From: Methanomicrobiales archaeon
Lineage (GTDB): Archaea; Halobacteriota; Methanomicrobia; Methanomicrobiales; Methanospirillaceae
NCBI GenBank assembly: GCA_025350045.1
Contig: JANXYM010000103.1
Coordinates: 1 to 38,896, forward strand
Direction of reading: 5' to 3'
Length of the DNA: 38,896 bases
Under the pieces are notes generated by a model. The model was not told the origin of the DNA. It searched no databases and worked only from the letters and a program-made list of their open reading frames with translations. Made by a program: the position numbers and the translations under genes. The stretch's first letter is position 1. Every line of letters begins with the position of its first letter. Below are positions 3,291 to 37,778 of this stretch, in pieces.

Positions 3291-3364
3291 GGGGCCATAG
3301 GGTAGCCTGGCCATCCTAGGAGACTGGGGGTCTTCTGACCTGAGTTCAAATCTCAGTGGCCCCA
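3291..3364 (+). tRNA. tRNA-Pro (anticodon GGG)
   Basis: The acceptor stem GGGGCCA pairs with TGGCCCC, with discriminator A at 3364. The anticodon stem GGAGA/TCTTC encloses the loop CTGGGGG, giving anticodon GGG at positions 34-36. The T arm is CTGAG-TTCAAAT-CTCAG. No CCA is encoded and there is no intron. The DUF89 gene starts 28 nt downstream. Confidence 0.95.
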
Positions 3365-6028: not shown

Positions 6029-6133
6029 AATTCACATCTATTCCCAACAGTAAAGATTGTAAAAACATTACCGAGATTGCAAAAAATTGTGCTCGGGAGA
6101 AACGCACATGAACCTTTAGCGTTCACACCCGAA

Positions 6134-6300
6134 GCATAAAAATCATTGATTACGAGTGTCCCCTGCCGCTATAGCCTCCTCATATGGCGATAGCGACACA
6201 TCGGCCTTAGGTGGCCTCATACGAAACAGCGGCAGTCAAGAGGGGGGGGGCACCCTCCTCTAGTAGCCGAAAGGGATGTGCGGAAAAAACGAGGAGGGGA
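6134..6300. other. Hairpin-rich non-coding element, possible structured RNA (element A)
   Basis: The 294-nt spacer between the convergent SPFH and M50 genes has no plausible ORF but strong pairing. CTGCCGCT (6163-6170) pairs perfectly with AGCGGCAG (6228-6235), enclosing smaller stems (TATAGCC/GGCGATA with one mismatch; GGCC-6 nt-GGCC). CCCTCCTC (6253-6260) pairs perfectly with GAGGAGGG (6291-6298). An AT-rich CATAAAAATC at 6134-6143 could be a TATA box for plus-strand transcription. GATTACGAGTGTCCCC (6148-6163) recurs, with one base different, at 37154 in another convergent spacer. It does not show RNase P or SRP RNA hallmarks. Strand and function are undetermined. Confidence 0.5.
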
Positions 6301-6302
6301 AG

Positions 6303-7622
6303 TTACGGTGCGGCCATTGCCTTTAACAAAAGAGGCATGGTGAAGGCCAGGATAAGGACAATGACCATGGAGTAGCTGACCGCGAGAACCACGGGGCCGG
6401 AATATTTTAACAGCCCCCGGGGTTCGAGCAGCCGTTCAACACCTTCTTTCATGATATATCCCCCGTCGAACGGGACCAGCGGTATTGCATTGCATAACCC
6501 GACACAGATGTTGAGCCAGGCGCACCAGAACAGGATCTGCACCACAAGCCAGTAATAATCAAACGGTACAGACCAGGCAGCAACATCCGTAGTGTCATTG
6601 ACAAGGATGATGAAATTGCCGAAATTGACGGGATCAATGAATACCTGGATAGGGATTGCCAGAATCACCAAGAATCCCAGGGGAGTGCCCAGCTGGTCGA
6701 AGATACGCTTCATCTGAGGTGCATCATAATATGCAACGCCCATGAATCCGCTGTCTTTGGGAGCAGTGCCCGGTGTTTCCGGCCACCGGCTCAATGTTAA
6801 TGCGTAGGGTGTTCTTTTTCCCTCCTTTTCAATGTCAAGGATTACCGTGTCTCCCGGGCGGGTGGTATTGAGGAACCGGGCAATTTCATCCCGGGAGGAG
6901 ATGTCTATGCCATTGATACTCCGTATCACTGAATCAGGAGGCACACCGGCAATTGCGGCAGGATAACCCTGGTACACCGCTTTTACCAGGGGCGCCTGGA
7001 GAGGAACGGCCATGCCCAGCAGGAGGACCAGAAGGCCAAAACAGAGGAGACCGACAACGATATTATTCATTATTCCGGCGCCCAGCATCCGTACCTTTGG
7101 AAGACCCCTGGTCTTCTCAAACTCCTCTTCGTCAGGCTCGACAAACGCGCCTATGGGGATGACACAGAACAGTACGCCGATGAATTTTACCTTCATACCT
7201 TCTGCACGGGCAAGGAACGCATGACCAAACTCGTGGACAACAAGGGTCAGCACAAAGGCAAACCAGACCGCAAACGTGAAGGGGATAAACTGGTTTACCC
7301 CGGGGATTGCCAGGATATTGCGCACATCATTTATTGCCGAGGGAGGGGTCTGCTGGACATAGTTGAAGTGGAGCGAGAACAGGAGCATGAACACGGTTGC
7401 AATGGAGACAAGGATTACGATGACCGCACCGAGCGTCCCATAAAAACGCAGGAAGGAGTGAAAGCGGGTAAGTATATCGAAAAATCCGACACGGTGGCTC
7501 CGTATCGCCATAATGGGACCATAGAAAACGATGTGCTCTTGCCAGAGTTTATTCCGGTGGATGACAAACGCCGTCGCTGCATAGGCGGCAACCAGAAGAA
7601 TGAGGATGAAGAGCCAGTCCAT
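6303..7622 (-). CDS. M50 (site-2-type) intramembrane metalloprotease with PDZ domain
   Basis: 439 aa from ATG 7622 (MDWLFILIL); the longer frame adds a hydrophilic stretch with no support. The zinc site HEFGH is at residues 130-134 inside a membrane helix, and the second signature NAIPLVPFDGG at 378-388 supplies the Asp ligand. A PDZ-like region lies about 225-300 (AAIAGVPPDSVIRSINGIDIS). Multiple transmembrane helices flank these sites. Site-2 proteases cut membrane-bound substrates, often anti-sigma factors or stress regulators in bacteria; archaeal substrates are mostly unknown. It converges on element A and the SPFH gene. Confidence 0.92.
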   Translation of the reverse strand: MDWLFILILLVAAYAATAFVIHRNKLWQEHIVFYGPIMAIRSHRVGFFDILTRFHSFLRFYGTLGAVIVILVSIATVFMLLFSLHFNYVQQTPPSAINDVRNILAIPGVNQFIPFTFAVWFAFVLTLVVHEFGHAFLARAEGMKVKFIGVLFCVIPIGAFVEPDEEEFEKTRGLPKVRMLGAGIMNNIVVGLLCFGLLVLLLGMAVPLQAPLVKAVYQGYPAAIAGVPPDSVIRSINGIDISSRDEIARFLNTTRPGDTVILDIEKEGKRTPYALTLSRWPETPGTAPKDSGFMGVAYYDAPQMKRIFDQLGTPLGFLVILAIPIQVFIDPVNFGNFIILVNDTTDVAAWSVPFDYYWLVVQILFWCAWLNICVGLCNAIPLVPFDGGYIMKEGVERLLEPRGLLKYSGPVVLAVSYSMVIVLILAFTMPLLLKAMAAP

Positions 7623-7696
7623 TCCAGTACAATGGCATTGCCGGGCTGATAAAGTATTCACCCGGGCCAAATCCTGCGTTGGTTAACATAAAACGG

Positions 7697-36507: not shown

Positions 36508-36544
36508 ATTGATGTGGGCAGATTGTATGCTAAAACATTTCTTT

Positions 36545-36742
36545 ATCAAAGTTTAATGGAAAAAAACATCAAGGTCCGATTAAATTTTTTTGAGCAGGGT
36601 CCGGTTGAAAATTTAAAATCAAAGTCTGGTTTATTTTTTTAAATCAAAGTTCGATGTTATTTTTTTACACGAGTTGTGATTTGAAAATGAAAAACGAAGT
36701 CTGGTTTTAATTTTTTAATCAGGGTTCGATTGATCCGGCTGA
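36545..36742. repeat. Degenerate tandem array with exact 25-nt period (block 1)
   Basis: Units start at 36568, 36593, 36618, 36643, 36668, 36693 and 36718, each exactly 25 nt apart, with a partial unit near 36545. The consensus is ATCAAAGTCTGGTTTTATTT followed by a T tract. Units alternate: AGTCTGG types at 36618 and 36693 and GTTCGAT types at 36643 and 36718 indicate a 75-nt higher-order period. The period is not a multiple of 3 and there is no convincing ORF. The spacing is unlike CRISPR, since there are no unique spacers. Confidence 0.85.
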
Positions 36743-36860
36743 CCGGCCGTATGTGCGGTTTGGGTGAGATGCTGGAGATAGTTTACGTCGGAGGTCCGCA
36801 CGGAGTTTGTTCCATTTTGAGTTCCGGGATCATGATGTGGATTGCATTTTTATTTTTTTC

Positions 36861-37080
36861 AAGCGAGTTGTGATTTGAAAATTAAAATCAAAGTGTGGTT
36901 TTATTTTTTTAATCAAGCTTTGATGTATTTTTTTCAAGCAAAGTCTGGTTAAAATGTTAAAATCAGGGTTCGATAGAAATTGTTTAAGCAAGGTCTGGTG
37001 TATTTGTTTCAAGGAGATCCAATTGAGAATGTAAATCAAAGTCTGCCTAAAAATTTTTCATAGTCTGGTTAATCTGAAAA
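36861..37080. repeat. Degenerate tandem array with 25-nt period (block 2)
   Basis: Units start at 36861, 36887, 36912, 36937, 36962, 36987 and 37012, then two shorter-spaced units near 37035 and 37057. The same consensus and T tracts recur as in block 1. A run of about 63 nt from CGAGTTGTGATTTGAAAA (36864) closely matches block 1 from 36670. The blocks are split by about 118 nt of GC-richer, unrelated sequence (36743-36860). Confidence 0.82.
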
Positions 37081-37141
37081 ATTTTCCAAGAGTATTTTTT
37101 TATTAAACTGAAATGGACTCTTCAAGTTCATATCAGGCCCG

Positions 37142-37264
37142 TTAATATAATCCGATTACGAGGGTCCCCGCCTCAGGGCCTTTCCGAGGCACGGTGGGGC
37201 AATGAGGGTTTCAGAATTTTTCCGTCACTGATCCGCCGCGAGGGCACCCCGTCGGGGGCGGCGG
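37142..37264. other. Hairpin-rich non-coding element, possible structured RNA (element B)
   Basis: A GC-rich island directly after the AT-rich repeat array and before the convergent UPF0179 gene. TTAATATAA (37142-37150) resembles a TATA box. GATTACGAGGGTCCCC (37154-37169) differs by one base from the block at 6148. GCCTC/GAGGC (37170-37174 with 37186-37190) is extended by CCCC/GGGG (37166-37169 with 37196-37199). CCGCCGC (37233-37239) pairs with GCGGCGG (37258-37264), enclosing CCCC/GGGG around GTC. TCGCTATGGCATATGA just downstream resembles, in inverse orientation, CATATGGCGATAGCGA of element A. Function and strand are unknown. Confidence 0.5.
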
Positions 37265-37331
37265 CGTTCATCGCTATGGCATATGAAAAACTATTTTCAT
37301 TCGGTGAAGATTATTATTATTTTTAAAACAT

Positions 37332-37778
37332 TCACGCCGGCCTGAGCTCAACCAGCTTCAGCGCCCGGCCCTTGTCGCAGATATCGGAAGCATTTCCCAG
37401 CACATCCACAACGATATACTTCTCGCCATCCGTAACCCCGTCCGGCCGGCAGAGCGGGAAACTGCGGCAGTCGGACTTGTTGCAGGAAAGTTCGGGCTTT
37501 ATCTTCGAGTTGATCATCGCCATATCCGCATTGATAAGCGCGGTGATGGGCGCCTCCATCACTTCGACTGCGGTTGCCCCGTTTAAGTGCACAGCACAAT
37601 CATGGTGGGTGGACCGGACCGTGACGATGCGGTACTTCCGTCCCTTCTGGAGGTTGTGACACGCCTTTTTCACCTTGCAGGTCTCGCATTCAGCCACTTC
37701 ACCTTCATAGATGAACTCTACATTCGGCTTTGCGAGCACGGTTCCCATGAGCGTTACCTTTGTTTTTGTTTCCGTCAT
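37332..37778 (-). CDS. UPF0179 family protein
   Basis: 148 aa. The protein is rich in paired cysteines: CETCKVKKAC near residues 31-40, CNKSDCRSFPLC near 99-110, and a later CDKG, suggesting a metal or Fe-S site. The start MTETKTKVTLMGTVLAKP and these Cys blocks match the archaeal UPF0179 family, whose function is not established. It lies 7 nt downstream of the G1P dehydrogenase gene, so the two are co-transcribed. Confidence 0.93.
   Translation of the reverse strand: MTETKTKVTLMGTVLAKPNVEFIYEGEVAECETCKVKKACHNLQKGRKYRIVTVRSTHHDCAVHLNGATAVEVMEAPITALINADMAMINSKIKPELSCNKSDCRSFPLCRPDGVTDGEKYIVVDVLGNASDICDKGRALKLVELRPA

Follow-up and report, generated by a model that had tools for sequence, protein, structure and literature searches.

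The 38,896-nt window analysed here, from a Methanomicrobiales archaeon, contains two gene-free spacers, carrying elements A and B, that share the motif GATTACGAG-N-GTCCCC. The question is whether this likeness marks a dispersed RNA family or common regulatory module, as the first-pass annotation of the DNA had proposed, or has another origin. Exact searching of the whole 2.53-Mb genome placed the two 16-mers, GATTACGAGTGTCCCC and GATTACGAGGGTCCCC, at 6148-6163 and 37154-37169, respectively, as annotated, and returned no further match. A and B are indeed related, but counting exact matches, of which there are only these two, overlooks the family to which both belong. An AT-rich stretch does precede the motif in both elements, and in both the motif lies ~140-178 nt from the stop codon of a convergent minus-strand gene, as had been noted. 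Element A is flanked by an SPFH/Band-7 gene and an M50 protease gene (6303-7670, minus strand), and element B by an ADP-ribosylglycohydrolase gene and a UPF0179 gene (37332-37778, minus strand). The evidence presented below makes it very probable that A and B are remnants of a Methanoregula MITE family whose partner is an IS5-family (ISH1-like) element.

A dispersed family in Methanoregula

In a blastn comparison with 60 relatives, 33 genomes of a single genus had dispersed copies of the body of B (37156-37280), and A matched via 6081-6167 only; in several genomes A and B matches adjoined one another. The aligned copies define a core of ~120 nt preceded by a module named U, and core and U were represented by the sequence-only models R1 and R2, respectively. 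R1 detected 54 core matches in the own genome (E<=0.01) and R2 detected 27 matches to U. Across the genus the core is found by R1 in 36 of 39 genomes, reaching at least 90 copies in some, and R1 matches across the class are confined to the same taxonomic family. The exact core pattern, searched in ~85,000 species, occurs at 75 loci, all of them in Methanoregula or unnamed Methanomicrobiales, and a search of IMG/VR viral contigs for the same pattern gave none. U is located 5-24 nt ahead of the core in 47 of the 95 distinct copies, and some core copies adjoin no recognisable U. The motif shared by A and B, GATTACGAG-N-GTCCCC, is the junction between U and core in this family, and A and B have no body sequence in common.

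The claim of a dispersed family was therefore borne out, with dozens of copies in the genome and genus. Its extension to an RNA or a regulatory module is unsupported, because there is no Rfam match, compensatory change exceeds that in shuffles in no more than two of five helices, the copies are decaying and carry varying cargo, and the TIRs and 8-bp target duplications are common to the family and an IS5-family insertion sequence (IS). Of 128 copies, 102 are clear of any ORF of at least 110 aa, and the other 26 overlap nothing but mechanically called frames; no protein-coding role could be assigned to the MITE unit. When copy flanks were classified using mechanically called ORFs, 50 of 125 copies proved to lie between convergent genes and 21 between divergent genes; since convergent flanks are this common in the family, the position of A and B near a convergent gene is unremarkable.

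Intact units and their likely mover

Exact searches for GGCTCTGTTGAAAC found forward/reverse pairs, and a systematic scan for units of 100-1100 bp bounded by GGCTCTGTTGAAAC-type inverted repeats yielded 84 TIR-bounded units, MITE-sized copies as well as ~1-kb IS copies, some of them core-bearing. An intact copy of the MITE measures ~440-560 bp. Between its two TIRs lie, in order, U, the GC-rich core (~120 bp), in many cases a hairpin (GGGGGTATGGGGGT..AACCCCC), a GATTTTCATGGGAAATCC module and the right arm. The TIRs are 13-15 bp long, of the GGCTCTGTTGAAAC or TGCTCTGTAGAAAC type, and are flanked by an AT-rich target duplication of 8 bp. At least seven of the eight flank bases match in 38 of the 84 units, versus 2.3% in the shuffled-flank control. 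Where the duplication is perfect its length is exactly 8 bp, as in 22 units, and no unit has one of 9 bp. L353:4446, L368:1896 and L223:613 are among the core-bearing units of 440-560 bp whose duplications are perfect. Other cargo also occurs between these ends, of a CCCACCCCCTTCGGGGGTCGCTCGGCC type and a CCAGACTTT..GTTAACTCAACTT type.

The same U end is joined to a different GC-rich cargo, CCCACCCCCTTCGGGGGTCGCTCGGCCGCCTCGTCGGGGCCTCGCTGGGCA, at L187, L189, L190 and L194 (own genome contigs C62, C74 and C42), and units of 145-148 bp with the same ends contain module C only (GGGTGACCCCCTCTCTCCC..CCCCCTTGACCCCC; L288:2435-2582, L297:693-839 and L192:1105-1249), those at L297 and L192 having perfect 8-bp duplications.

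The own genome harbors a 988-bp IS with the same TIRs as the MITE (G000:C58:17968-18955), whose frame-broken transposase matches PF01609 (DDE_Tnp_1; E 2.3e-10, 41 bits, cut-off 23) and the NCBIfam IS5 model NF033579 (141.5 bits, cut-off 140). In relatives, ~1-kb IS copies have ends of the same type and perfect 8-bp duplications, and in many of them the open frame is longer. The ISH1 subgroup of IS5, described as 900-1150 bp long with 8-bp direct repeats (Table 2, PMC6352166), resembles the partner IS (941-1013 bp, 8-bp duplications) in its ~1-kb size, IS5-family DDE transposase and 8-bp duplications. The IS is thus likely to be ISH1-like within the IS5 family, a subgroup placement made by length and duplication size alone. 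The GGCTCTGTTG ends pointed to the IS6 family as the mover, a candidate displaced by the IS5-family IS. One relative (G029; L326, L331, L333-L337) has many near-identical IS5-family copies that look recently active; the duplications of those checked are perfect, AT-rich and 8 bp long.

From the matching ends and duplications we infer that the IS5-family IS supplies transposase in trans to the MITE. MITE copies insert into AT-rich intergenic DNA, are inherited and then decay. B has kept its core and lost recognisable ends. A retains its left arm and the beginning of the core and has lost its middle, probably by internal deletion; both are presumably inactive at present.

Anatomy and history of elements A and B

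Features of the two elements are collected in Table 1.

Table 1. Features of elements A and B and the evidence for each (window coordinates).
Feature	Position	Strand	Evidence
Element A: worn, internally deleted MITE copy, left arm apparently fused to right arm	6090..6300 (right boundary approximate)	+	U, consensus and right-arm matches
Left TIR of A, worn, TGCTCGGGAGAAAC versus [GT]GCTCTGTWGAAAC	6090..6103	+	Compared with TIRs of the 84 TIR-bounded units
Module U of A: TIR, GAAC..GTTC hairpin, CACACCCGAA, CATAAAAATC	6089..6144	+	R2 model 59.5 bits, E 5.6e-16; nhmmer E 5.3e-17
U-to-core junction of A, GATTACGAGTGTCCCC, first ~16 nt of core	6148..6163	+	Collinear with U and core start elsewhere; truncated G001 relic
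Putative right-arm start (module E) of A, joined to core start at CCCC	6160..6195	+	E2 model E 0.0081, best match in window; EC model best match 6160-6194
Putative right-arm tail trace of A (module C end in reverse, towards right TIR)	6245..6285	+	EC model second-best window match, E 0.22, weak alone
Element B: well-preserved GC-rich MITE core, unit ends not recognisable	37157..37275	+	R1 model 101.6 bits, E 7.5e-31
U-to-core junction of B, GATTACGAGGGTCCCC	37154..37169	+	Position and aligned copies
Possible worn U upstream of B, not significant alone	37095..37153	+	Equalled by 17 of 300 shuffles

The U of A is the best-scoring U match of the R2 model across nine genomes, and alignment of A to the family consensus scores 73, compared with a shuffle maximum of 26. 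This identity disposes of the "TATA-like" character ascribed to the stretch ahead of the motif in A: a conserved module ends there (CATGAAAATC, here worn to CATAAAAATC). A promoter reading of U was rejected because the TATA-like look stems from the worn CATGAAAATC. Downstream of the junction, the two best window matches of a right-arm model built without A both fall within A, at 6160-6194 and 6245-6285, with the correct strand and the expected order and spacing, tentatively suggesting, at weak individual scores of E 0.008 to 0.22, that the remainder of A derives from the right arm. Neither the core, nor module C alone, nor the second cargo type could be matched to the body of A. A may accordingly combine a left arm and core start with a right arm brought to it by an internal deletion at CCCC, possibly through microhomology; it has a worn left TIR only, without a right TIR or a target duplication. 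The likeness between A and B that had been seen in CATATGGCGATAGCGA looks like chance, since in A this sequence belongs to the right-arm module and the CATATG of B is missing from the G034 ortholog of B.

At B, TIRs and a target duplication were not recognisable. Upstream of the G034 ortholog of B, the U score is equalled by 4 of 300 shuffles. The B spacer is ~830-850 nt long here; three relatives in which the flanking genes are conserved have a spacer of only 25-116 nt, an empty site. A truncated relic of the U-core junction occurs in G001 at the place orthologous to A (score 46, shuffle maximum 29), and G034 has a similar, marginal relic (30, shuffle maximum 32), while no relic was found at this locus in G015 and G012; the orthologs of A lack both its stems and its body. 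The relics in G001 and, marginally, G034 make it probable that A dates back to a common ancestor and decayed afterwards.

The DNA preceding B (36538-37115) is AT-rich and contains ~8 worn copies of CAAAGTCTGGTTTTATTTTTTTAAATCA, spaced ~25 and 50 nt apart; it is part of an ~800-nt insertion missing from the relatives G004, G015 and G012. In addition, CAAAGTCTG is the complement of CAGACTTTG, which occurs in the third cargo type.

Structure of the elements and alternative explanations

The two perfect 8-bp stems reported for A are present (6163-6170/6228-6235 and 6253-6260/6291-6298), but at least two such stems arise in 3.7% of dinucleotide shuffles. The folding energies are unremarkable: compared with shuffles, A folds only mildly better (z -2.2) and B is ordinary (z -0.7). 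Covariation was assessed for five candidate helices in 82 core copies against shuffles, with relatedness uncontrolled: helix H3 has 16 compensatory cells (shuffle maximum 8) and P2 has 11 (shuffle maximum 7), whereas compensatory change in H1, H4 and the end pairing does not exceed that in shuffles. Because relatedness was uncontrolled, H3 and P2 hint only weakly at structural selection, which could act on an RNA or a DNA hairpin alike. Most changes in the core are one-sided decay. Rfam, at gathering and relaxed thresholds, detected only a tRNA in the window and nothing above chance at A or B; a tRNA-Pro (GGG) at 3291-3364, not called by Rfam at the gathering score, was called by ARAGORN.

A structured ncRNA family with its own promoter, in which U would be the BRE/TATA region, the core the RNA and the GGGGG..CCCCC hairpin a terminator, is consistent with the fixed order of U, core and hairpin, with the modest covariation in H3 and P2 and with the fold of A. 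However, this layout is explained by the TIRs, the 8-bp duplications and the matching IS, and the missing Rfam match, the predominantly one-sided decay of the core, the presence of other cargo inside the same ends and the loss of stems and body alike from the orthologs of A all weigh against an RNA, which we regard as very unlikely. It is likewise quite unlikely that selection maintains the GC-rich core as a structural module in its own right, a DNA cruciform or an RNA serving transposition or the host, which different transposon ends have captured repeatedly, a reading suggested by the good conservation of the core and its occurrence with and without U. The copies could also have been kept where convergent genes end, as bidirectional terminators or to form mRNA 3' ends. 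This would be compatible with their being MITEs, and the excess of copies between convergent over divergent genes and the GC hairpins are in its favor; insertion into AT-rich intergenic DNA with purging near promoters would yield the same bias, though, and with inconsistent distances to the stop codons, decay of both A and B, and relatives that lack B, such a use appears unlikely.

Two further explanations are of negligible probability. Chance likeness of two unrelated GC-rich spacers might be argued from the motif having just two exact copies in the genome and from the lack of body sequence common to A and B, but it is already refuted by the model matches, A and B each matching independent models of parts of one family that are correctly placed relative to the motif. 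Palindromic GC-rich modules are also found in REP/PATE-type elements of IS200/IS605, which have palindromic ends and move by single-strand transposition; IS200/IS605 elements are not known to have TIRs or to make duplications, and the TIRs and 8-bp duplications present here, together with a DDE transposase, already disfavor an origin of this kind, leaving it a negligible probability.

Relation to known elements

Archaeal MITEs linked to IS5 are known in Methanosarcina, with ISMba19, ISMac15 and ISMma12 as partners (PMC3852290). The Methanoregula family resembles them in being short, TIR-bounded, multi-copy and intergenic and in having a matching IS5-family IS, but differs from them in its host, its greater intact length, its modular, exchanged cargo and its 8-bp duplications. 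MITEs usually have stable hairpins, insert into AT-rich intergenic targets and bear ends derived from an IS (PMC10969869). A literature search on Methanoregula repeats, ncRNA and insertion sequences found nothing relevant, and the family is, as far as we searched, undescribed and ordinary in kind. The RUP, Correia/NEMIS and BOX repeats of bacteria are dispersed, hairpin-rich intergenic elements, several of which are thought to be mobilised in trans by IS; they occur in other hosts with other IS families, and their likeness to the present family is one of general description.

These results explain a repeat family that reaches at least 90 copies per genome in a methanogen genus and name its likely mover. 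GC-rich hairpin spacers in Methanoregula should be checked for transposon ends before being called regulatory RNA, and the modular cargo inside shared ends is of modest interest for the evolution of archaeal MITEs.

Five loci of G034 (L129, L133, L135, L139 and L148) have well-conserved cores near which neither U nor a TIR is recognisable. The core at these loci may travel with other ends and, given the copies without U, may be partly independent of the IS5-family IS.
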